IMG/VR virus record: IMGVR_UViG_3300045996_002993
Coordinates: 1 to 32,659 of that record
DNA: 32,659 bases
Source: a virus
Strand: one strand, 5' to 3'
Position 1 is the stretch's first letter. Each line of letters begins with the position of its first letter. Positions 2,855 to 14,212 of the stretch are shown here, in pieces. The notes beneath the pieces are model-generated. The model was not told the DNA's origin, made no database searches, and saw only the letters and a program-made list of their open reading frames with translations. A program made the position numbers and the translations under genes.

Positions 2855-3815
2855 CCTGGACGACGACCTGCTCGAGGCCGCCGAGCCGGATCCGCTGTAC
2901 GGGCTCGGCGAGCACATCAACCGCAAGCGGGGTCGGTATCACTTCCCGCCCCCGCCCGGGACGCCGGACCCCAAGGGCAACGGCTACATGCGAATGACCA
3001 ACCTGGCCTCCGCGTTCTCCGATCAGGAGCGCCTCCAGCTGTGGCTGGAGTGGCACACCCTCATGGGTCTGCGCTTGCGCGACGGCCTGCTGTTCGATGA
3101 GTGGATGGCCATGCCGCTGGAGCAGATGGACACCGACGAACAGCGCAAGATCACCAAGGAGTTCGCCGAGCGGGTGCGGGACACGAACGGGGCCAATGAC
3201 GGGGGGCGCCGCGGCACCGCGCAGCACGCGGTGAACGAGACGTACCTCAACACCGGGGAGATGATCGGCACCCGCACCCAGAAGCAGCGGCTTGAGAGCG
3301 CCCTGGAGGCGCTGGACCGGTGCGGGTTCGATGTCCTCCCCGGTAGCCAGGAGCAGCGCGTGTGGCACCCGTTGGCGGGCGGGACGATAGGGACCCGGGA
3401 CCTGCGCGTGCTGTGCCGGCGCACCGGCCAGGTGGGGTCCGCCGACTGGAAGACGCAGCTGCGCTTCTGGACGTACCAGGAGGTGGCCGGCCAGATGTAC
3501 GGGTACGACTCCGCTCCCTGGTGGTGGGTGGGGCCGCCGGACGAACGCGGCCGGTGGGTGCGGGCCGAGCCCAGCACGCTCACGGGCCACCCGGACGGCC
3601 CGTTCGCCGGGAAGCCGGTGGCCATCGTGGTGCACATGCCGCGGGACAGCACGCAGGCCGTGATCAAAGAAGTGGATCTGACCTACGGCCGCTCAGTGCT
3701 CACGGTGGCCGCGCAGAACACCGAGTTGCGCTCGATCGGCCGCTCGGTGGCCGTGAACCGGTGTCCGGCGAACGACCGCCCGGCATGGGTTGACACCCCC
3801 GCTATAGCCGAGTAA
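2847..3815 (+). CDS. PD-(D/E)XK exonuclease, RecB/Cas4-like
   Basis: A 322-residue protein starting at GTG 2847, with GAGG (2836-2839) 7 nt upstream. Nuclease motifs are visible in order: RGTAQH at 122-127 with a conserved Glu at 131, GTRD with Asp185, and SADWKT with Asp200 and Lys202, followed by a QEVAGQMYGY helix. This is the RGTxxH / GxxD / DxK / QxxxY arrangement of RecB-family and Cas4-family phage exonucleases, which resect DNA in recombination or degrade host DNA. It is probably functionally coupled to the SF2 helicase upstream. The first 110 residues are family-specific and unassigned. A good promoter for the next operon overlaps its 3' end. Confidence 0.82.
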   Translation: MSDLDDDLLEAAEPDPLYGLGEHINRKRGRYHFPPPPGTPDPKGNGYMRMTNLASAFSDQERLQLWLEWHTLMGLRLRDGLLFDEWMAMPLEQMDTDEQRKITKEFAERVRDTNGANDGGRRGTAQHAVNETYLNTGEMIGTRTQKQRLESALEALDRCGFDVLPGSQEQRVWHPLAGGTIGTRDLRVLCRRTGQVGSADWKTQLRFWTYQEVAGQMYGYDSAPWWWVGPPDERGRWVRAEPSTLTGHPDGPFAGKPVAIVVHMPRDSTQAVIKEVDLTYGRSVLTVAAQNTELRSIGRSVAVNRCPANDRPAWVDTPAIAE

Positions 3816-6584: not shown

Positions 6585-7001
6585 ATGGTCCCGATCCGGC
6601 GCGCGCTGGGCTTCCTGGCCGCGGTCCTGTTCGGCACGTTCATGGTCACGCTCGGTCCGGGGCACCCGGCGAGCGCGGCGTGGTCCGACTGCAACTCGGC
6701 CAACATCTGCATCTTCAACGGTGGGGGCGGCACCGGCACGATGTACCAGTGGTCCACCGGCTACATCTACCAGCGCCCTGGCCATCAGATGAACCTCACC
6801 GGTGGCCAGAACAACATGGCCTCCAGCGTGTACATGAACGCGTCCAGCTCCAACGCCTGGTACGTGTACGACTACCAGTGCGACCAGCTGCACATCCCGG
6901 GTGGCAGTGCCATGCGGCTGAACAACGGTGGGTCGTACAACCTCACGTCCGGGACGTGGTCGTTCATGAACAACAGGATCAGCTGCATCAAGGCCAACTG
7001 A
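6585..7001 (+). CDS. Secreted four-cysteine protein
   Basis: A 138-residue preprotein with a classical Sec signal peptide: basic start MVPIRR, hydrophobic core (residues 8-22) and a cleavage site after ASA at 29-31. The mature part of about 107 residues is rich in Asn, Gly, Ser and Tyr, has no Lys until the end and holds four cysteines (36, 42, 99, 134), so two disulfides are likely. The beta-rich pattern with CNSANICIF resembles small secreted actinobacterial proteins of the peptidase-inhibitor I36/crystallin-like group, but I cannot confirm this. AAGGGAG at 6573-6579 is the ribosome site. A strong terminator follows at 7017-7050. It may modify the infected cell surface. Confidence 0.8.
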   Translation: MVPIRRALGFLAAVLFGTFMVTLGPGHPASAAWSDCNSANICIFNGGGGTGTMYQWSTGYIYQRPGHQMNLTGGQNNMASSVYMNASSSNAWYVYDYQCDQLHIPGGSAMRLNNGGSYNLTSGTWSFMNNRISCIKAN

Positions 7002-7016
7002 CTCGGCCGGCGCCAC

Positions 7017-7050
7017 GACGGGACACCGCATTGCCGAGCGGTGTCCCGTC
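7017..7050 (+). terminator. Perfect 13-bp hairpin terminator
   Basis: GACGGGACACCGC (7017-7029) pairs perfectly with GCGGTGTCCCGTC (7038-7050) around the loop ATTGCCGA. It ends the secreted-protein unit. The loop itself contains the TTGCCG that serves as -35 of the next promoter, so terminator and promoter are physically merged. Confidence 0.8.
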
Positions 7051-7065
7051 TGCTATAGTGGGGGT
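7031..7065 (+). promoter_or_regulatory. Leaderless phage promoter
   Basis: TTGCCG (7031-7036), a 17-bp spacer ending in TCTGC, then TATAGT (7054-7059). Six bases later (GGGGGT) comes ATG 7066, so the expected transcription start coincides with the A of the start codon. No Shine-Dalgarno precedes the gene. It belongs to a set of promoters sharing GCTATAGT in this window. Confidence 0.75.
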
Positions 7066-7254
7066 ATGACCGAGACACAGCTCAAGATCCGCAATCTCCG
7101 CCGGTTCTTCTGGGTGGCCCTGGTGTTCGCCGCGGTGGCCGGCATCAACGCGATCGTCTCCGGTGAGGCTATCAAGATCCTCCCGGTGGTCTTCTGCCTC
7201 CTCGCGGCGCTGGGGTTCCTCCTGGCGCGCCGGGATCTGGAGAAGCGGTCGTGA
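7066..7254 (+). CDS. Small two-helix membrane protein (leaderless)
   Basis: A 62-residue protein with a short basic N-terminus (LKIRNLRR), a first transmembrane helix at about 14-32 and a second at about 37-54, then a charged tail ARRDLEKRS. Both ends are probably cytoplasmic. The family is not recognised. The ATG sits at the predicted transcription start, so translation is likely leaderless. The gene begins a five-gene operon running to 8327. Confidence 0.78.
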   Translation: MTETQLKIRNLRRFFWVALVFAAVAGINAIVSGEAIKILPVVFCLLAALGFLLARRDLEKRS

Positions 7255-7460
7255 ACAAGTGCGAGGCCCGGCGCCTGGCCGACGAGGACACCACGCCATA
7301 CGGCGTGCTCTCCCGCGGGCGCACCGGATACGGCCTGATCCACGTCACCGGCTACCGCAACGCGAAGATCATGTCCCGGCCGGGGGACCTGATCCTCACC
7401 GCCTCCGAGGTGAAGCGCGTGCGCGCCGGCTGGCGCCCGGACATGGAGAAGGAGAACTAG
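7251..7460 (+). CDS. Small basic protein, unknown
   Basis: A 69-residue protein starting at GTG 7251, which overlaps the previous stop. It is rich in Arg and Gly, with TGYGLIHVTGYRNAK and a C-terminal helix EVKRVRAGWRPDM. The short beta-type region could be a small barrel, but no family is recognised. It is translationally coupled to the membrane protein upstream. An AAGGAG near its end serves the following gene. Confidence 0.72.
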   Translation: MNKCEARRLADEDTTPYGVLSRGRTGYGLIHVTGYRNAKIMSRPGDLILTASEVKRVRAGWRPDMEKEN

Positions 7461-7462
7461 CC

Positions 7463-7972
7463 GTGCTTAATTCGCAGACCCTGAACGCCATCCGCAAGCG
7501 CGCCGCCAAGGCGACTCCCGGCACCTGGAAGACCGGCCGTGAGTTCGGCAGCGGCTCCCTCGGCTCGCACGTCGCGGTCCTGTCCGGGAAGCTGCCGCCG
7601 GTCGAGCTGGACCCCGACCGCAACGGCCGCAACGATGCCGCGTTCATCGCCCACGCCCGCCAGGACATTCCTGCCCTGCTCGCCGAGATCGACCGTCTCC
7701 GCAACATCGAGGATGCCGCGTTGGACTACTACCGGTCCGGTGGCGACGTCGACGACCACAACGCCCTGATGGACGCGGTGCGCGCCGACCTGGAACAGCG
7801 CGATACCCGTCCGAGTCGCCCGGAGGAGCTGGTGCACGGGCTGCGGAAGGGCGGTCAGTCTTGGTGTACAGGTCACCACGTCCGAGCGTCTCTCAAGCCG
7901 GACACGGTGACCTGTACGGACTGCCTGACCGCCATGGATAACGCGCCAAATGCGACGGAGGCAACTCGATGA
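7463..7972 (+). CDS. Ead/Ea22-like phage protein
   Basis: A 169-residue protein starting at GTG 7463, with AAGGAG at 7449-7454. It has the segments ATPGTWKTG, FGSGSLGSHVAVL, DRNGRNDAAFIAHARQDIP and ALLAEIDRLR in order. This series is typical of a widespread phage family of the Ead/Ea22 type, found in early regions and without known biochemical role. A helical middle section follows. The C-terminus carries WCTGHH and CTDC, which may form a zinc site. The stop overlaps the next ATG. Confidence 0.75.
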   Translation: MLNSQTLNAIRKRAAKATPGTWKTGREFGSGSLGSHVAVLSGKLPPVELDPDRNGRNDAAFIAHARQDIPALLAEIDRLRNIEDAALDYYRSGGDVDDHNALMDAVRADLEQRDTRPSRPEELVHGLRKGGQSWCTGHHVRASLKPDTVTCTDCLTAMDNAPNATEATR

Positions 7973-8172
7973 GCAGGCTTACGCGCAAGCGAGCCCGACA
8001 GTGGGCGCGCTACGTCAATCGCTACGAATCCATCTCGCACCCGGCTATCGGCGGCAGCAGCTTCCTTCGGGTGATCTGGCGCGGGATGTACCGCCAGGAC
8101 CCCGCGACGTACAAGTACATCCGCCGCCAGGTCCGGAGGGTTACCGGTTCCAACGCAGGGAGCACCTCATGA
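7969..8172 (+). CDS. Small Arg-rich protein, unknown
   Basis: A 67-residue strongly basic protein (MSRLTRKRARQWARYVNRY...). Its start overlaps the previous stop and its own stop overlaps the next start. The N- and C-terminal basic helices are compatible with nucleic acid or membrane-surface binding. No conserved family is recognised. Its operon position is between the Ead-like protein and a membrane protein. Confidence 0.7.
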   Translation: MSRLTRKRARQWARYVNRYESISHPAIGGSSFLRVIWRGMYRQDPATYKYIRRQVRRVTGSNAGSTS

Positions 8173-8327
8173 TCTGGGTGATGCTCGGTGCCTGCGTGGT
8201 GTTCGGCGCCCTGGTGCTGCTCATGTGGGTGGACGACTGGTGGCAGCGCTGGGAGTGGATGTTCCACCCCGGCAACCGCGGCGACCTGGACGGCCCCCGG
8301 CATGCAGCCCCCAGAGGGATCGAGTAA
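8169..8327 (+). CDS. Small single-pass membrane protein
   Basis: A 52-residue protein whose residues 2-20 (IWVMLGACVVFGALVLLMW) form a transmembrane helix, followed by a Trp-rich stretch (VDDWWQRWEWMF) and a hydrophilic tail. It is the last gene of the operon that starts at 7066. Its stop codon lies in the loop of an inverted repeat, and two hairpins follow. Confidence 0.7.
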   Translation: MIWVMLGACVVFGALVLLMWVDDWWQRWEWMFHPGNRGDLDGPRHAAPRGIE

Positions 8328-8374
8328 GATCGATCCCTGCAGCCCGCTGGTCACCCCCGAGTGGCCGGCGGGCT
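8315..8374 (+). terminator. Tandem hairpins ending the 7066-8327 operon
   Basis: Hairpin one pairs AGGGATCGA (8315-8323) with TCGATCCCT (8330-8338), with the stop codon in the loop. Hairpin two pairs 8341-8354 with 8361-8374 over 14 positions, including two G-U pairs in RNA, around a 6-nt loop. Together they form a double terminator for rightward transcription. The following 8375-8417 contains a 14-bp perfect palindrome (AGAGAGCGCTCTCT, 8393-8406) of unknown role. Confidence 0.65.
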
Positions 8375-8417
8375 GTCCATGTTCTCTCAGCGAGAGAGCG
8401 CTCTCTGCTATGCAGAC

Positions 8418-8449
8418 GAAGAGGGCCCCCTCCCGGGGGCCCAATCTTC
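8418..8449. terminator. Hairpin terminator of the leftward mini-gene
   Basis: GGGCCCCC (8423-8430) pairs with GGGGGCCC (8435-8442) around TCCC. The stem resumes beyond an AA bulge with GAAGA (8418-8422) and TCTTC (8445-8449). It begins inside the stop region of the leftward gene at 8448-8624 and can terminate from both sides, separating convergent transcription. Confidence 0.75.
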
Positions 8450-8624
8450 AGCTCTCCTGAACCGTCTTGATCGTCCGGGTGGCGCCGGCCGGGGCGCTCT
8501 GGCGGGCTGCATCCTTGCGGCTGTCCAGCTGATCGGCCGGGATGTGGCGGACTCGCTCGGTGGTCTGGGTGGGCCGGCCGTTCTGGATACTGTCGGTGGT
8601 GATGATCAGTCGGTACGTGTCCAT
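8448..8624 (-). CDS. Small protein, unknown (single-gene unit)
   Basis: A 58-residue protein (MDTYRLIITTDSIQNG...) on the minus strand, preceded by a GGAGG-type ribosome site (minus strand GGCGGAGGAAATGG at 8623-8636) and a strong promoter at 8655-8683. It is followed at once by a terminator, so it forms its own transcription unit. It is hydrophilic with a likely short beta strand near the start and a basic C-terminus. No family is recognised. A dedicated promoter and terminator argue that it is a genuine gene with independent control. Confidence 0.75.
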   Translation of the reverse strand: MDTYRLIITTDSIQNGRPTQTTERVRHIPADQLDSRKDAARQSAPAGATRTIKTVQES

Positions 8625-8654
8625 TTCCTCCGCCTCTCTCTTGCTTATACATCT

Positions 8655-8683
8655 ACTATAGCAGACGTATGGACAGGACACAA
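8655..8683 (-). promoter_or_regulatory. Phage promoter, leadered type
   Basis: Read on the minus strand: TTGTGT (8683-8678), a 17-bp spacer ending in GTCTGC, TATAGT (8660-8655), then AGATGT and ATA at the expected +1. Here the ATG seen at the leaderless sites is ATA, and a leader of about 25 nt with a good ribosome site precedes the gene. It is back-to-back with the promoter at 8688-8716. Confidence 0.75.
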
Positions 8684-8687
8684 CCCC

Positions 8688-8716
8688 TTGTCCACGGCAA
8701 CTTCCCCAGCTATAGT
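8688..8716 (+). promoter_or_regulatory. Leaderless phage promoter
   Basis: TTGTCC (8688-8693), 17 bp, TATAGT (8711-8716), CGGGGT, then ATG 8723 at the expected +1. A GGACA...TGTCC inverted repeat (8676-8680 with 8689-8693) spans the -35 boxes of this and the divergent promoter and could be a shared operator. Confidence 0.75.
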
Positions 8717-8722
8717 CGGGGT

Positions 8723-9640
8723 ATGACCAAGCCAATGCACACCCGGGCCGCAAAGGTGGCCACCACCGTCCTTGTCCTCGGCATCTTCGCCAGCCTGGCC
8801 GGCAACCTCCAGGCCATCTACCTGGACAACGCCATGCCCGGCGTGGGCGCCATCGTGTCCGCCGGCCTGTGGCCACTACTTGTCCTCGGTATGGTGGAAC
8901 TCCTGCTGCACACTCCGTGGTTGGCCAACTGGCGTGACCACCTCACCAAGCTGGCCACTGTCCTGCTGGTGGTGGCCGTAGCCGCATGGGTGTCCTACTG
9001 GCACCTGGCCAATGTCCTGTCCCACTACGGCTACGACGTGGCCAGCCGATACGCCGGACCGTTGGCCATTGACGCAGCCATGGTCCTGGCCGCGCTGGCA
9101 CTCAACCGCATCGGATTGGCCAGGCGTGCGCCGATGGCCGTGGACAGTCCGGCCAGCACGCTCATACCCACCGTCTGGGAGGGCATCCGGCATGCGCAGC
9201 TGGACAGCGCGGACACTGCATGCGACCTCGGCGATCCAGCGTGCGAAGGTGGCCACGACCTGAGCTACATGGACATGGCCACGGACATGGCCATCCAGGG
9301 CGCCGGCGCCGAGCTGGCCAACGAGGCAGAGGACTGGCTCACCGCACTGAACGGCCGGGTGCCGCTGGAGGACCCGGTGCTGCCGGCGCCAGTGACCGTG
9401 ATCCCCGGGCCGAGCACTCCGCTGCCGCGGCGCACCCCGGGCCGCACGCGCACTGAGATCGACCCGGTCGAGGCGCTCCACCTCGCCGCCATCGGCCGGC
9501 GCGAGCGCCACTACAGCACCGGCGAGATCGCCGAACTACTGGCCGGCTGGTACGGCGTGAGCACCCGCACGATCCGGCGTCAGCAGTGGTGGAGCCGGGC
9601 CATGCAGGGGGACGCAAGCGAGGGCGCGAACGCGTCTTGA
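8723..9640 (+). CDS. DUF2637-like membrane protein with C-terminal HTH
   Basis: A 305-residue protein starting leaderless at ATG 8723. The N-terminus has four transmembrane helices (about 13-34, 40-62, 76-94, 110-130). The segment VSYWHLANVLSHYGYD followed by PLAIDAAMV resembles the DUF2637 family of actinobacterial plasmids, integrative elements and phages. An acidic linker and a Pro-rich stretch follow. Residues 261-293 (STGEIAELLAGWYGVSTRTIRR) form a probable helix-turn-helix. The layout suggests a membrane-tethered DNA-binding protein. It faces the FtsK/TraB-like gene across one small gene. Its DNA is packed with TGGCCA and GGACA/TGTCC words. Confidence 0.72.
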   Translation: MTKPMHTRAAKVATTVLVLGIFASLAGNLQAIYLDNAMPGVGAIVSAGLWPLLVLGMVELLLHTPWLANWRDHLTKLATVLLVVAVAAWVSYWHLANVLSHYGYDVASRYAGPLAIDAAMVLAALALNRIGLARRAPMAVDSPASTLIPTVWEGIRHAQLDSADTACDLGDPACEGGHDLSYMDMATDMAIQGAGAELANEAEDWLTALNGRVPLEDPVLPAPVTVIPGPSTPLPRRTPGRTRTEIDPVEALHLAAIGRRERHYSTGEIAELLAGWYGVSTRTIRRQQWWSRAMQGDASEGANAS

Positions 9641-9651
9641 TCAGCGGATAC

Positions 9652-9682
9652 GGGGGGTCTCTGGCTTAAGTCAGGGGCCCCC
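9652..9682 (+). terminator. Hairpin terminator with T-rich tail
   Basis: GGGGG and following bases (from 9652) pair with the segment ending CAGGGGCCCCC (to 9682) over about 14 bp including wobble pairs, with CTTAAG at the tip. The T-rich tail TTGCTTGTGATT follows, and its first six bases double as the -35 box of the next promoter. Confidence 0.7.
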
Positions 9683-9711
9683 TTGCTTGTGATTGGTACG
9701 TCTGCTATAGT
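9683..9711 (+). promoter_or_regulatory. Phage promoter, leadered type
   Basis: TTGCTT (9683-9688), 17 bp ending GTCTGC, TATAGT (9706-9711), GGGGGT, then ATA at the expected +1 (9718). The transcript has a leader of about 27 nt with GGAGGA before ATG 9745. It matches the promoter at 8655-8683 in having ATA, not ATG, at +1. Confidence 0.75.
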
Positions 9712-9744
9712 GGGGGTATAAGACGGACCGGCCAGGAGGACCAG

Positions 9745-9915
9745 ATGTACGCAGCGATCACCAGCAAGCTCGGAGTCCACGTCGTCACCACCACTCACGA
9801 CACGCAGCGTGCGGCCGAGATAGCTTGCCGGCGCTCGATCCGATCCGGTGCCGCGGACTCCGCCGCAGTATGGAGCGCTACCGAGCAGATCGCGATCTTC
9901 GGTTCCGGTCGCTGA
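9745..9915 (+). CDS. Small protein, unknown (single-gene unit)
   Basis: A 56-residue protein (MYAAITSKLGVHVVTTTHD...) with a strong GGAGGA ribosome site at 9735-9740, its own promoter and a 16-bp terminator just downstream. The N-terminal part looks like two beta strands and the middle is an Ala/Arg-rich helix. No family is recognised. Its isolation between the DUF2637-like and FtsK-like genes suggests an independently controlled accessory or regulatory peptide. Confidence 0.7.
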   Translation: MYAAITSKLGVHVVTTTHDTQRAAEIACRRSIRSGAADSAAVWSATEQIAIFGSGR

Positions 9916-9920
9916 CACAC

Positions 9921-9955
9921 ACGCGAGCCCCCGGCCAATGGCCGGGGGCTCGCGT
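9921..9955. terminator. Bidirectional 16-bp hairpin terminator
   Basis: ACGCGAGCCCCCGGCC (9921-9936) and GGCCGGGGGCTCGCGT (9940-9955) are perfectly complementary with a 3-nt AAT tip. It separates the rightward 56-aa gene from the leftward FtsK-like gene, whose stop is at 9975. Confidence 0.85.
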
Positions 9956-9974
9956 TCGTAGTGGCCAAGCCAGC

Positions 9975-11855
9975 TCAGTGTCCCAGCACGCGCTCCCTCC
10001 AGTCCACCAGTTCGGCCAGGTCGTACAGCTTGGCCTCCGTCTGTCCATACGGCTGGCCATCGGGCTTGGCCAACGGCGCCGGGAAGCCCGGGCGCCGGCT
10101 GGCCGTCCGGAGCCCGTCCATGGACAGCTTGTCCGGGCCGTCCTGTCCAGGGAGCATGTCCAGCGCGCTGGCCAACGTCACCGCGCTGGTGATGGCCAGC
10201 TGCTCCGAGTGGCCAACCACTGTGCTGTCCACCTGTCCGTGGCCAACCTGCTCACCGAGGACAGGACCGTGGACAGGTGCCGCCTGCTGACACGCGGTAG
10301 CCATGTCCTGCTCGGACATCCACGGGACACGGAAGATGTGGAAGTCCTCGCCCATGGCCACGCCCCAGATGCCGCGCGGGCCGGGTGGACAGGCCACGTA
10401 AGCGATGGTGTCCACCAGCATTTTCCACAGCTTCCTGTCCCACTTGGCCACGAACCGGCCACCCTGGAAGCTCTCCCGCACGTCCCCGCCCCCGCCACCG
10501 AACACGCCGGCCGACGCGCGCTGCGCCGCGGCGATCATGTGCATGCGCAACTCGCGGCCCATGAACACCGTCTCCTGCAGCCCCACCACCGCGGGAGAGA
10601 TGGTGGGCGGATCCAGGTCTTCCTGGTTCAGCCCCTCGTCCAGCGCGAGCACCCACCCGTCCGCCTTGTTGCCATCGCACCGCTCGACGCAGTCGGCCAG
10701 CTTGGCTTTGGCCTCGTTCTGGATCCGCCTGCGCTCGCCGCGCCAGTACCGGTTGAGGATCTTGATCTGCGCGTTCAGTTCCTCGGCCACCACGAACACC
10801 CGGCGCTGGGTCTCCAGTTCCTCCTCCGGCAGCTCGATCCGGCGCCGGGACTCCTCGGCCACGGCCAGCCAGGCGGCATGCAGGTCGGCGTCCCGGTAGG
10901 CGTACACCACCCGGTCCTTGCCCAGCTTGTTCGCCCATCGCCAGTGGGAGAAACGCTTGGGGTCGGTGATCACCACCCCGTCACCGCGCTCGATCCGCTG
11001 GCGCAGCACCACGCGCACCAGCACACTCTTGCCGGTGCCGGCCGCGCCGGACATCAAGATGTGCGGCGAGTCCGCGGACAGCGACACCTTCACCACGTGG
11101 CCACCGGCCTTGCGGCCCACCACGATCTCGTCCTCGGCCGCTTCGCGGATGGCCTTCTCCAGATCGGCCCACGTCACGGTCTTCGGTGGCACCGGCGCGG
11201 CGGACAGCTCCACGGACACCGCGGCGCCGGCCTCGCGCCAGTCCGCGGCCACCGGCGCTGGGATCCCCAGGCGCGCCCCCACGTTCTCGGTGATCTGCTT
11301 CTTCACGCCGGCCGACAGCGCGGTGCCGGCCGGCAGGGCCACCCGGGCCACCTGCCGCACGGCCTCCGGCATGTCCGAGCCGGTCCCCCAGTCCCGCGGG
11401 AGGTCGATCATCGCCCGGGCGCGGCGCTTCTGGTACCGCAGGTTCAGCACCGAGCACAACACCGCCGCGGCCGGGTCGATCCACTCCCGGTTCTGCCGGC
11501 GGTTGGTCCACCGGTCCCGGCCGTACGCCACTGCCCACGCCAGGGTGGCTAGCGCGAGCGCGGCCAGGTACGCCAGGACCACCCACCGGTTCACCCAGGG
11601 GGTGATGGACAGGATGATCAGCCACACCGGCACGGTGGTGGCCAGGTTGCGGCGCGCCACGCGGCGCCAGCGGGCGCGCGTGAGCTTGGGTACCGGCTTG
11701 CCGCGGTAGTCCTCGGTGGCGTCGTGCAGGAAGGACGCATTGTCTCCCTTGCTGAAGATGTATGCCCCGGTCACGAAGTAGGACCAGGGCACACGGATCA
11801 CCGCGGGCACGCGGTACCTATGCTTCTGTTCCACGATCACACGCTGTCCCGTCAT
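9975..11855 (-). CDS. FtsK/TraB-like membrane-anchored DNA translocase
   Basis: A 626-residue protein. Two transmembrane helices (about 73-86 and 91-111) anchor it. The ATPase core has Walker A GAAGTGKS at 270-277, the FtsK-type strand VVITDPK at 294-300 and a Walker B-like VFVVAEE at 353-359. MIAAAQRAS follows in the sensor region, then an extended C-terminus. This order matches FtsK/SpoIIIE/TraB double-stranded DNA pumps of Streptomyces plasmids and integrative elements. No gamma-type winged-helix is obvious. ATG 11855 lies 6 nt after a TAGCAT -10, so translation may be leaderless. The last third of the gene is unusually rich in TGGCCA. It may move phage or plasmid-form DNA between hyphal compartments, or serve segregation. 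Confidence 0.85.
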   Translation of the reverse strand: MTGQRVIVEQKHRYRVPAVIRVPWSYFVTGAYIFSKGDNASFLHDATEDYRGKPVPKLTRARWRRVARRNLATTVPVWLIILSITPWVNRWVVLAYLAALALATLAWAVAYGRDRWTNRRQNREWIDPAAAVLCSVLNLRYQKRRARAMIDLPRDWGTGSDMPEAVRQVARVALPAGTALSAGVKKQITENVGARLGIPAPVAADWREAGAAVSVELSAAPVPPKTVTWADLEKAIREAAEDEIVVGRKAGGHVVKVSLSADSPHILMSGAAGTGKSVLVRVVLRQRIERGDGVVITDPKRFSHWRWANKLGKDRVVYAYRDADLHAAWLAVAEESRRRIELPEEELETQRRVFVVAEELNAQIKILNRYWRGERRRIQNEAKAKLADCVERCDGNKADGWVLALDEGLNQEDLDPPTISPAVVGLQETVFMGRELRMHMIAAAQRASAGVFGGGGGDVRESFQGGRFVAKWDRKLWKMLVDTIAYVACPPGPRGIWGVAMGEDFHIFRVPWMSEQDMATACQQAAPVHGPVLGEQVGHGQVDSTVVGHSEQLAITSAVTLASALDMLPGQDGPDKLSMDGLRTASRRPGFPAPLAKPDGQPYGQTEAKLYDLAELVDWRERVLGH

Positions 11856-11868
11856 ACCTGCATGCTAT
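11856..11868 (-). promoter_or_regulatory. Probable leaderless promoter of the FtsK-like gene
   Basis: On the minus strand TAGCAT (TAnnnT) is followed by GCAGGT and then ATG 11855, the same 6-nt spacing and GGTATG ending as the other leaderless sites. TATAGC overlaps it two bases upstream. No convincing -35 is present, so it is weaker than its divergent partner at 11889-11917. Confidence 0.5.
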
Positions 11869-11888
11869 AACATGGAGAGTTCCTGGTG

Positions 11889-11917
11889 TTGCGTGATGAT
11901 GACACCACAGCTATAGT
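11889..11917 (+). promoter_or_regulatory. Phage promoter, leadered type
   Basis: TTGCGT (11889-11894), 17 bp, TATAGT (11912-11917), GGATGT, then ATC at the expected +1. The leader to ATG 11985 is about 60 nt. A perfect 6-bp inverted repeat, TGGTGT (11884-11889) and ACACCA (11902-11907), flanks the -35 region and may be an operator. Confidence 0.7.
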
Positions 11918-11984
11918 GGATGTATCCCGGGTGGGGCTGGGTGCGGTACCTGGCCCTGTCCGGCCAAACGAGACGGGACATCTC

Positions 11985-12230
11985 ATGCCGACGACGACCT
12001 ATCCTCGTCCCCTGAAGATCCTGAACCGCCTCTGGAACAACTGGCAGTTCACTGACGTGCACACGCTCCAGATCGAGTGCCACGAACCCGGCGACGCACC
12101 GTTCTGGCTCCGGCAGCTGAACCAGGTGGTGACCGTGGACGGTGGCCCCATGCATGAGCAGTTCCTGGTGGTGGCCGTGAGCGGCACGTCCGAGAGCGTC
12201 ACCACGGTGATCCTGGCGAGCGTGCGATGA
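11985..12230 (+). CDS. Small protein, unknown
   Basis: An 81-residue protein (MPTTTYPRPLKILNRLW...). ATG 11985 is chosen because upstream in-frame starts lie before the promoter -10. The ribosome site is weak (GACGGGA). The pattern of VHTLQIECHE, NQVVTVDGG and FLVVAVSG suggests an all-beta fold. No cysteine pair, membrane helix or known family is seen. It is the first gene of a four-gene operon, and its stop overlaps the start of the GIY-YIG-like gene. Confidence 0.72.
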   Translation: MPTTTYPRPLKILNRLWNNWQFTDVHTLQIECHEPGDAPFWLRQLNQVVTVDGGPMHEQFLVVAVSGTSESVTTVILASVR

Positions 12231-12718
12231 CGCTCAAGATCGTGCGCAAGTGGAAGCGGCGCCGACCCGGTATCTACCTGGTGCGCACACGTAAGCACCT
12301 CCACCCATGGCGCCGAGAGAACGGCTACGTGGGCGAGAGCGTGGACGTGGTGGCGCGCGAGAAGGACCACCGCGGCACCGGCCGCTACGGCCACAAGGCC
12401 AAGTGCTGGTCCGACCTGGAGCCCACCTGGCATGTACTCCGGCTCCCGTGGTGGCTGGGCTGGAAGTGGTTGCTGCGCCCGCTGGAGACGCTGGCCATCC
12501 TCCTGCTGGCCCCTCGGTACAACGAGGCTAAGAACCGGTGGAATCCGCGGCGGGTGTCCATCTACAGCCAGCAGGCGCAGCGCCGGGCCCGGGACACCGG
12601 TGGCCTGGCCTACCGCGCGGGTGTCCAGGTGGCCGTGTTCGGCCGGCGCACCGTGCAGTTTCTCGGTGTGCTGCTCATCCTGATGGGCGTCGCGATGACC
12701 GTTAAGGACCAGATGTGA
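12227..12718 (+). CDS. GIY-YIG nuclease-like protein with C-terminal membrane helix
   Basis: A 163-residue protein. GIY at residues 15-17, GYVGES at 33-38, Arg44 in VVAREKDH, Glu87 in LRPLET and Asn99 in PRYNE follow the order of GIY-YIG catalytic motifs (GIY, YxG, Arg, Glu, Asn). The family cuts DNA in homing, restriction or repair. The fold would be complete by about residue 105. A hydrophobic segment near the C-terminus (about 143-160, QFLGVLLILMGVAMTV) looks like a membrane anchor, which is odd for a nuclease. It is translationally coupled to neighbours on both sides. Confidence 0.68.
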   Translation: MTLKIVRKWKRRRPGIYLVRTRKHLHPWRRENGYVGESVDVVAREKDHRGTGRYGHKAKCWSDLEPTWHVLRLPWWLGWKWLLRPLETLAILLLAPRYNEAKNRWNPRRVSIYSQQAQRRARDTGGLAYRAGVQVAVFGRRTVQFLGVLLILMGVAMTVKDQM

Positions 12719-12909
12719 GCGGCAAGACCGGCCCACGCCAGGCGGTGCTCCTGGCCCGGGCGCAGAAGTACGGCAGCGTCATGACGCGCGACGAGGCCGA
12801 GCGGTGTGCAGCCCGGCGCCTGGTGGCCCGCGGCGTGCTCTCGGTCCAGCGGCTCGGCGGACCTGGGTTCGGTTACACCGTCGTATACAAGATCGTGGGG
12901 GGTGCGTAG
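12715..12909 (+). CDS. Small possible winged-helix DNA-binding protein
   Basis: A 64-residue protein from GTG 12715 overlapping the previous stop. The sequence reads helix (QAVLLARAQKYG), helix (TRDEAERCAARRLVARG), then a strand-turn-strand (VLSVQRLGG..GFGYTVVYKIV), which is the topology of a mini winged helix. No exact family is recognised. If it binds DNA it is the best small regulator candidate in this promoter-rich block. The fold assignment is only pattern-based. Confidence 0.65.
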   Translation: MSGKTGPRQAVLLARAQKYGSVMTRDEAERCAARRLVARGVLSVQRLGGPGFGYTVVYKIVGGA

Positions 12910-13367
12910 TGAGCGGCATGGATCTTGTTCGTTTCAACCGGCCGGCCGACGTGGTGCGCCGGCCGCTCCCTCGGCGTGAGCCCACGGTGGTGGAGACGGT
13001 GGTGGGCACGCCGGAGCAGATCAAGGCGGAGATCCTGCGCCTAAAGCGCGCGCGCCTGCTGGTGTCCACCGGGGAGCGCCGGCTGGTCACCCGCGGCCGG
13101 TACGCGGGCCGGGTGGAGCTGGAGCTGGTGGTGCTCGACCGACCGGCGCCGGTGTGGCCGCGCCGGTGGCTGATCGCAGGCTGGGTGATGATGGGGTTCT
13201 CCGCGGTGGTGACCTCGGTCACCTGGCTGCTCACCTCGCTCACGGCCGCGGCACTGCTCACCGTGCTGGTGTCCGTGCTGGCCACGTTCCTGATCGGATT
13301 GTGGATCCGGTTCGGCGGGGGCCGGTCCCGGAATGTCATCGTGAACCAAGTGGTGCAGATGCGGTGA
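12909..13367 (+). CDS. Membrane protein, unknown
   Basis: A 152-residue protein starting at GTG 12909 (ATG 12918 is an alternative), with GGGGGGT upstream at 12897-12902. The first 90 residues are Arg-rich and soluble and include an amphipathic stretch around EQIKAEILRLKRARLL. Two transmembrane helices follow (about 84-105 and 108-132), and a basic tail ends the protein. No family is recognised. It closes the operon begun at 11985, and a leaderless promoter for the next gene follows within 10 bp. Confidence 0.75.
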   Translation: MSGMDLVRFNRPADVVRRPLPRREPTVVETVVGTPEQIKAEILRLKRARLLVSTGERRLVTRGRYAGRVELELVVLDRPAPVWPRRWLIAGWVMMGFSAVVTSVTWLLTSLTAAALLTVLVSVLATFLIGLWIRFGGGRSRNVIVNQVVQMR

Positions 13368-13386
13368 CCTCTGCTATAGTAGGGGT
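13351..13386 (+). promoter_or_regulatory. Leaderless phage promoter
   Basis: CTCTGC precedes TATAGT (13375-13380), which is followed by AGGGGT and ATG 13387 at the expected +1. The -35 region (13351-13357) is weak, but the TGC before the -10 gives an extended -10. It overlaps the last codons of the upstream membrane protein gene. Confidence 0.65.
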
Positions 13387-13578
13387 ATGGACGAGACGCA
13401 GACCGCACCCAGCACCCAGCCCATCCCCACCGACGTGATCCGGTTGAAGGCCGAAGCCATCAACGCCCTGGTGGACTCGTTCGAGAAGCGCTACGAGGAC
13501 GGCCAGTTCTCCCAGACCAGTGAGATCTACACCTTCCTCACCACCTGGCGCGACGCCATCAACGACCTGATGATCTGA
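13387..13578 (+). CDS. Small acidic helical protein (leaderless)
   Basis: A 63-residue acidic protein. After a Thr/Pro-rich start it is largely alpha-helical (VIRLKAEAINALVDSFEKRY, then IYTFLTTWRDAINDLM). No Shine-Dalgarno is present and the ATG sits at the predicted transcription start. It is a single-gene unit with its own promoter and a 15-bp terminator. The family is not recognised. It is the last + strand gene before the late operon. Confidence 0.75.
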   Translation: MDETQTAPSTQPIPTDVIRLKAEAINALVDSFEKRYEDGQFSQTSEIYTFLTTWRDAINDLMI

Positions 13579-13584
13579 CCCCAC

Positions 13585-13626
13585 ACACACGGAAGCCCCC
13601 GCTTGCCGGCAGGGGCTTCCGTGTGT
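13585..13626. terminator. Bidirectional 15-bp terminator between the two arms
   Basis: ACACACGGAAGCCCC (13585-13599) pairs perfectly with GGGGCTTCCGTGTGT (13612-13626). It lies where rightward and leftward operons converge, so it can stop both. It marks the boundary of the late (- strand) region. Confidence 0.85.
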
Positions 13627-13656
13627 CCTACGGCCGAGAACCACTCGGAGGGGACT

Positions 13657-13845
13657 CTACCCCTCCTCCTCGATCACCGGGGGCGGGGCCGACGGCTGCA
13701 CGGCCACCCCGTCCAGCGCGATCTCCGGCCGGTTCTGCAGTTCGATCGCCAGTGCGTTCAGCCGGGCCAGGTCACCCGGCGTCGCCTCCACAGTGAGCGT
13801 CCCGGACATGTCCACCTCGTTGCCCACGTAGCGCATCACCAGCAT
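13657..13845 (-). CDS. Small protein, unknown (end of late operon)
   Basis: A 62-residue protein (MLVMRYVGNEVDMSG...). ATG 13845 overlaps the stop of the upstream gene (TGATG). Two or three beta strands are followed by a helix (ATPGDLARLNALAIELQN) and a Pro-rich acidic tail. No family is recognised. It is the last gene of the - strand operon, before the terminator at 13585-13626. Confidence 0.68.
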   Translation of the reverse strand: MLVMRYVGNEVDMSGTLTVEATPGDLARLNALAIELQNRPEIALDGVAVQPSAPPPVIEEEG

Positions 13846-13976
13846 CAGAGGTTCACCCCCAGGGCGGCCATCGTGGTGATCACCTGGAGCGCGCCGAGCC
13901 AGAACGCGCCGACTGCGGTGTAGGCCAGTACATGCCGAATGGGCCTCATCGGCTTGCCCGAGTGGTCCTCGGTCAT
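13845..13976 (-). CDS. Small single-pass membrane protein
   Basis: A 43-residue protein with a basic N-terminus (MTEDHSGKPMRPIRH) and one hydrophobic helix (about 16-41, VLAYTAVGAFWLGALQVITT). It overlaps both neighbours by a few bases. It lies near the holin and other membrane genes and may assist lysis, but that is inferred from position only. Confidence 0.65.
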   Translation of the reverse strand: MTEDHSGKPMRPIRHVLAYTAVGAFWLGALQVITTMAALGVNL

Positions 13977-14212
13977 TCCACACGCTCCGGCCAGTGCCAT
14001 GAACCCGGCTCGTTGTCGGCCGCGAACGCCACACCCTCGTCCGCCAAGGAGTGGAAGAACAGACCGGTGGGGTTCTGCACGCACAGCCCCACCGTGGTCC
14101 CGTCCACCTCGGTCACCGTGGCAGCCCGGCACGCCGGAGGGAACCGGCCGTCCGCTGAGCCGCGACTGACGTAGTGGACTATCCGGCCGATGCTCGGTCG
14201 CTGCGCAGTCAT
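13973..14212 (-). CDS. Conserved actinophage protein, unknown
   Basis: A 79-residue protein from ATG 14212, overlapping the holin-like gene's stop. It has the recognisable actinophage pattern GRIVHYVSRGS, CRAATVTEVDG, VGLCVQNPTGLFFH and SWHWPE in order. Proteins with this pattern are common in Streptomyces phages near lysis or tail genes and are probably small all-beta domains. The biochemical role is unknown. The start is fixed by the overlap with the upstream gene. Confidence 0.78.
   Translation of the reverse strand: MTAQRPSIGRIVHYVSRGSADGRFPPACRAATVTEVDGTTVGLCVQNPTGLFFHSLADEGVAFAADNEPGSWHWPERVE

Follow-up and report, generated by a model that had tools for sequence, protein, structure and literature searches.

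The window, a 32,659-bp IMG/VR record of 68% GC analysed here at its full length, contains six predicted promoters built around one invariant core. Sequence comparison gives good support for a set of phage-specific leaderless promoters that recurs through a family of related viruses. With moderate confidence, we favor a reading in which these are housekeeping-sigma promoters, with no leader or a short one, each carrying a palindromic operator to which a dimeric regulator encoded by the phage would bind. The regulator would probably be a repressor.

Six predicted promoters in the middle block of the window

The minus strand of the window encodes a terminase, a capsid protein and an endolysin and the plus strand a helicase and an exonuclease. 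The middle block between the two strand groups encodes a DUF2637-like protein and a HerA/FtsK-like ATPase and contains small ORFs. The core GCTATAGT occurs six times in the window, at 7052, 8709, 9704, 11910 and 13373 (+) and 8662-8655 (-), against 0.08 expected, and none of 100 dinucleotide shuffles reached six. All six lie on the two strands within 7.0-13.4 kb, the block to which the first-pass annotation had assigned them. The six promoters that it listed, with TATAGT beginning at 7054, 8711, 9706, 11912 and 13375 (+) and 8660 (-), are exact to the base.

TTG is found exactly 17 bp upstream of five of the six -10 hexamers, as had been claimed, at 7031, 8688, 9683 and 11889 (+) and 8683 (-); the 13375 site has no TTG at that distance. 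The six bases after the -10 are GGGGGT, CGGGGT, GGGGGT, GGATGT, AGGGGT and AGATGT. All end in GT and are followed by AT, in agreement with the first-pass annotation. The more specific NGGGGT/NGATGT form holds in this record and does not extend to the family, in which positions -6 to -1 vary between phages. The ATG codons proposed at +1 (7066, 8723 and 13387) open ORFs of 62, 305 and 63 aa respectively, and a codon-based gene caller starts genes at the same positions. Where ATA or ATC stands in place of ATG a leader had been predicted, and the gene begins 27 nt (9745), 61 nt (11985) or 24 nt (8624, -) downstream. A simple promoter scan of the window lists two of the six sites (7031 and 8688), the other four being below its threshold. 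The promoters and the genes that they precede are as follows.

7031..7066, +, promoter/operator 1: -35 TTGCCG 7031-7036; -10 TATAGT 7054-7059; candidate operator 7046-7065; predicted +1 is the A of ATG 7066, leaderless
7066..7254, +, 62-aa ORF: putatively leaderless; small membrane-like protein; gene called without use of the motif; no family match
8448..8624, -, 58-aa ORF: preceded by a 24-nt leader that contains GGAGG
8648..8683, -, promoter/operator 2: -35 TTGTGT 8683-8678; -10 TATAGT 8660-8655; candidate operator 8668-8649 ACGTCTGCTATAGTAGATGT; predicted +1 8648
8688..8723, +, promoter/operator 3: -35 TTGTCC 8688-8693; -10 8711-8716; candidate operator 8703-8722; predicted +1 is the A of ATG 8723, leaderless
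8723..9640, +, 305-aa membrane protein: four long helices, C-terminal helix-turn-helix (HTH), DUF2637-like; present in 15 of 15 records
9683..9718, +, promoter/operator 4: -35 TTGCTT 9683-9688; -10 9706-9711; candidate operator 9698-9717; predicted +1 9718; 27-nt leader with AGGAGG to ATG 9745
9745..9915, +, 56-aa ORF: downstream of promoter 4
11889..11924, +, promoter/operator 5: -35 TTGCGT 11889-11894; -10 11912-11917; candidate operator 11904-11923; predicted +1 11924; ATG 11985 after a 61-nt leader; the FtsK-like gene is divergent
11985..12230, +, 81-aa ORF: first gene of a likely 11985-13367 operon
13352..13387, +, promoter/operator 6: no -35 TTG; extended -10 TGC plus TATAGT 13375-13380; candidate operator 13367-13386; predicted +1 is the A of ATG 13387, leaderless
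13387..13578, +, 63-aa ORF: putatively leaderless

Comparison of homologues bears on two of these starts. The N-termini of relatives of the 8723..9640 protein align to 8723 and not to the upstream in-frame ATG at 8669. A gene of record G001 with weak similarity to the 63-aa ORF (23358, -) has the same motif and also starts at +1.

Three further sites in the window resemble parts of this set. Read on the plus strand, the palindrome of promoter 2 (8645-8669) gives TATAGC and, six bases later, ATG 8669 in frame with the 8723 gene (a 323 aa version); it scores 23.0 with a matrix built without the window and could serve as a weak divergent promoter and alternative start. At 3787-3815, inside the end of the exonuclease gene, CCCCCGCTATAGCCGAGTAA forms a seventh and weaker operator-like palindrome, with a score barely over the 95% level of shuffles. 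Record G002 has GCTATAGT near the end of the gene homologous to the exonuclease (21802). Ahead of the FtsK-like gene (11840-11885, -), TAGCAT precedes ATG 11855 (-) by six bases with the shared motif absent, a possible leaderless promoter.

A shared core and predicted leaderless starts across an uncultured family

Relatives of the window were found by alignment of the FtsK-like protein, which gave 13 IMG/VR records, and one more came through the DUF2637-like protein. The family thus comprises 15 records including the window, all uncultured and with home-made gene calls, and nine members are 43-46 kb long. The DUF2637-HTH, FtsK-like and 163-aa proteins are present in 15 of 15 records. The DUF2637-like membrane/HTH protein (8723-9640) and the FtsK/HerA-like ATPase (9975-11855) are kept more widely in the family than the virion genes, and both are typical of actinobacterial mobile elements.

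Among 50,697 isolate phage records there is no match to positions 7000-14000 by megablast or to the two marker proteins by tblastn, and the FtsK-like protein has a single 11% match in isolate phages. A profile search with the same protein detected no prophage copies in bacterial genome contigs. Pattern matches in viral contigs were considered as relatives and rejected, as the 40 stretches recovered were mostly single and close to the chance level. The family appears to consist of previously undescribed actinobacterial viruses; the host assignment is drawn from GC content, DUF2637 and capsid relatives in Gordonia and Mycobacterium phages.

Across the 15 records GCTATAGT has 105 exact occurrences against approximately 1.7 expected, and 101 of the 105 are not wholly inside genes, though coding sequence makes up approximately 90% of the DNA. 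TTG enrichment is confined to spacings of 16-19 bp (66 of 129 family sites), so the constant 17 bp is specific to the window's record. These are the hallmarks of sigma-70/SigA (HrdB-type) promoters, a TTG-type -35 at 16-19 bp and a -10 TAnnnT, the latter present in every site by selection. Outside the window's six, core-selected sites have A at +1 in 91% and T at -15 in 90%.

A start codon lies exactly at +1 in 34 family sites and at any other offset in at most 6. Shine-Dalgarno sequences precede none of the 34 starts at +1, compared with 34 of 39 starts with leaders of 11-45 nt. The gene caller rewards Shine-Dalgarno sequences and is blind to the motif; the peak at +1 is therefore no artefact of gene calling. 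Leaderless mRNA, as the first-pass annotation proposed, is strongly indicated by these patterns. Leadered transcripts often would begin ATAAGCAAG or ATCAGCAAG (L079, L082, L087, L095, L058 and the window's 8648, -), which resemble the leaderless start ATGAGCAAG with the G changed. A single base change may convert the leaderless form into the leadered one or back.

The motif had also been claimed to be phage-specific. This claim is borne out by its recurrence in 14 related records and by its scarcity elsewhere. The host-style arrangement TGNTATAGT-N6-ATG has 17 matches in 297 genomes of one class, and the exact long version TCTGCTATAGTNGANNYATGA has 20 matches in a 257 Gb GTDB-based collection, one of them clearly actinobacterial.

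Phage-specific flanks and a candidate operator

The first-pass annotation saw in the invariant bases near +1 a sign of something other than a plain sigma70 promoter. A special initiation element of this sort is not supported by comparison with the relatives, in which the +1 spacing is ordinary and the flanks are phage-specific and form an inverted repeat about the -10. The flank consensus is TACGTCT in many records, CGTGGTGT in G003, CACTCCTCT in G014, CATC(T/C)CTCT in G012 and TTCCTCT in G011. Beyond the family consensus, the sites of one phage are conserved chiefly at -22..-18 (z 15), -17..-15 (z 9) and -6..-1 (z 11). The -35 region and spacer show little such conservation (z approximately 3), and +1..+10 show none.

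Across 14 phages the two flanks change together as mirror complements, with a score of 0.484 at the centre of CTATAG and at most 0.055 at centres shifted by 1 to 8. Each phage was one unit in this test and all alternative mappings share the same ancestry. Of 17,280 mappings of position and base, only 2 reach this score: the true mapping and one that is nearly equivalent to it. The family's records are few and related, which keeps the test short of full independence. Dropping phages or groups hardly alters the result, and the covariation is mainly in pairs 2-6 from the core. Clear palindromes (ACGTCT/AGACGT) are found in G007 and G009. The symmetric core GCTATAGC, a poor -10, is enriched, with 14 sites against approximately 1.6, mostly in one record, G006. 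G003 and G004 have left flanks of their own (CGTGGTGT and GGCCTT-like) with poor right-arm complements.

In the family as a whole the half-sites have dyad symmetry around a single centre; at individual sites this symmetry is partial. Only promoter 2 has a strong palindrome in the window, ACGTCTGCTATAGTAGATGT, the best there, with 7 of 8 flanking pairs matched; the 7066 site is weak, with 2 of 8. Outside the window's six sites, the two half-sites show no covariation from one site of a phage to the next. This is expected if each phage has one protein, and the dyad evidence rests on the 14 phages. The pattern of the flanks looks like that of an operator for a dimeric protein.

In the mechanism that we propose, each site would be a strong promoter for the host housekeeping sigma factor, with TTG at -35 in about half, a TnTGC extended -10, TATAGT and A at +1. 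An operator of approximately 20 bp would be centred on the -10 hexamer, consisting of a left half-site at -20..-15, the core GCTATAGT and a right half-site at -6..-1. A phage-encoded dimeric regulator would recognize both half-sites and, when bound, keep RNA polymerase off the -10, so that dispersed small non-structural genes are held off or shut down together. When the regulator is absent these genes would fire together. As +1 falls just past the right half-site, the gene would start either at +1 with a leaderless AUG or after a short Shine-Dalgarno leader. The sequence itself shows the motif with its enrichment and placement, the register of the start codons, the Shine-Dalgarno split and the phage-specific, covarying flanks; the transcription start, the use of the host sigma factor, the existence of the regulator and repression over activation are inferred from it. 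Repression or temporal shut-off is favored over activation because an operator centred on the -10 would most simply exclude RNA polymerase.

The sites might instead be plain optimised housekeeping-sigma promoters, with a TnTG extended -10 and a favorable discriminator, duplicated round each genome and served by no dedicated regulator. T-17, T-15 and G-14 match the extended -10, and G-5/A-4 are consistent with the known discriminator preference of sigma. Outside the window's six sites, the family consensus alone gives a TCT...AGA symmetry, and the lack of site-by-site covariation within a phage would be explained as well. However, duplication and shared ancestry would not favor covariation of mirror complements at one centre only, and copying would carry along the -35 region, the spacer and the first codons, where there is little or no within-phage excess. 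We therefore regard plain promoters as unlikely.

The palindrome could also bind a phage activator or a DNA-organising protein. The dyad data are silent on repression versus activation, and the family does not require a lysogeny repressor, as tyrosine and serine recombinase domains (PF00589, PF00239) are absent from 13 records, some of them fragments, with controls positive, and no general CI-like HTH_3 repressor, which was sought as a candidate, is common to the family. However, a protein over the -10 is expected to block RNA polymerase, and with a -10 near consensus an activator seems unnecessary, so that this reading has a slim chance of being right. A phage-specific sigma factor or modified polymerase that reads an extended -10/+1 element, as the first-pass annotation implied, would suit the near absence of the motif from host-class genomes but is highly improbable, as bases around +1 differ between phages, the -35 and -10 are ordinary, and no gene with sigma-70 region 2 was found in 13 records. 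Since integrase, resolvase, sigma-70 region 2 and general CI-like HTH genes were not found, the operator reading does not imply control of lysogeny.

A candidate for the regulator was sought among the shared proteins. Of the HTH proteins, the DUF2637-like one (8723-9640) alone was found in every one of the 15 records and is a candidate; its structural model has four long helices and a confident C-terminal helical domain, and its relatives have DUF2637 and HTH matches. The model has no significant Foldseek match, and co-divergence of operator and protein is not beyond that of other genes. A mirror-tree search for the regulator produced correlations that track general relatedness, and no protein family stands out. 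It seems doubtful that this membrane-anchored protein is both the regulator of the entire leaderless regulon and a membrane tether for phage DNA. In several phages the protein would itself be made from one such promoter.

If the operator reading is true, a single short element would account for the leaderless starts as well as for the shared regulation of dozens of small unknown phage genes, and each phage of an uncultured family would have its own regulatory address. Throughout the family, start codons could be revised and small genes located. Identification of the regulator would make paired promoter and operator parts available for actinobacteria.

Comparison with known systems

A literature search on the core string listed no paper of visible relevance. 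In the window, the 13-bp cluster K SAS GGGATAGGAGCCC has no match at up to 2 mismatches. Sites like GGTGGMTGTCAAG, the cluster A stoperator consensus, have 2 matches at up to 2 mismatches compared with 1.9 expected.

Leaderless genes are ordinary in actinobacteria (approximately 20% in Streptomyces), and their promoters have TANNNT ahead of an AUG at +1 with no Shine-Dalgarno sequence (PMC6742748). The promoters described here share the position of the -10, the AUG at +1 and the absence of a Shine-Dalgarno sequence. They differ in the near-invariant GCTATAGT and in their phage-specific flanks, and the 297 genomes hold 17 look-alikes.

In cluster A mycobacteriophages, operators and stoperators are scattered over the genome in many copies, each phage having its own consensus and a repressor specific to it. 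A stoperator is an asymmetric 13-bp site, usually outside promoters, to which the repressor binds as a monomer (PMC6550527, PMC9283540). The present sites are similarly numerous in each genome and phage-specific, but nearly all are at gene starts and they are dyad-symmetric.

The closest known system is that of the ESAS promoters of cluster K mycobacteriophages. Copies of ESAS and SAS are found close to gene starts across the non-structural half of these actinophage genomes, and ESAS combine SigA-like promoters with imperfect inverted repeats that differ between subclusters. The repeats are 17 bp with a 4-13 bp spacer, usually beside the 13-bp SAS that bears a Shine-Dalgarno sequence, and in a phage of subcluster K4 the last base of some right repeats is also the first of the start codon (PMC3203893, PMC11373665, PMC12699233). 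The present sites do not match an arrangement of two 17-bp inverted repeats with such a spacer, as within-phage conservation is mainly at -22..-15 and -6..-1. Both systems unite a promoter and a phage-specific inverted repeat near gene starts; unlike in ESAS, the half-sites here are approximately 6 bp and directly flank the -10, and many of the genes are predicted to be leaderless.
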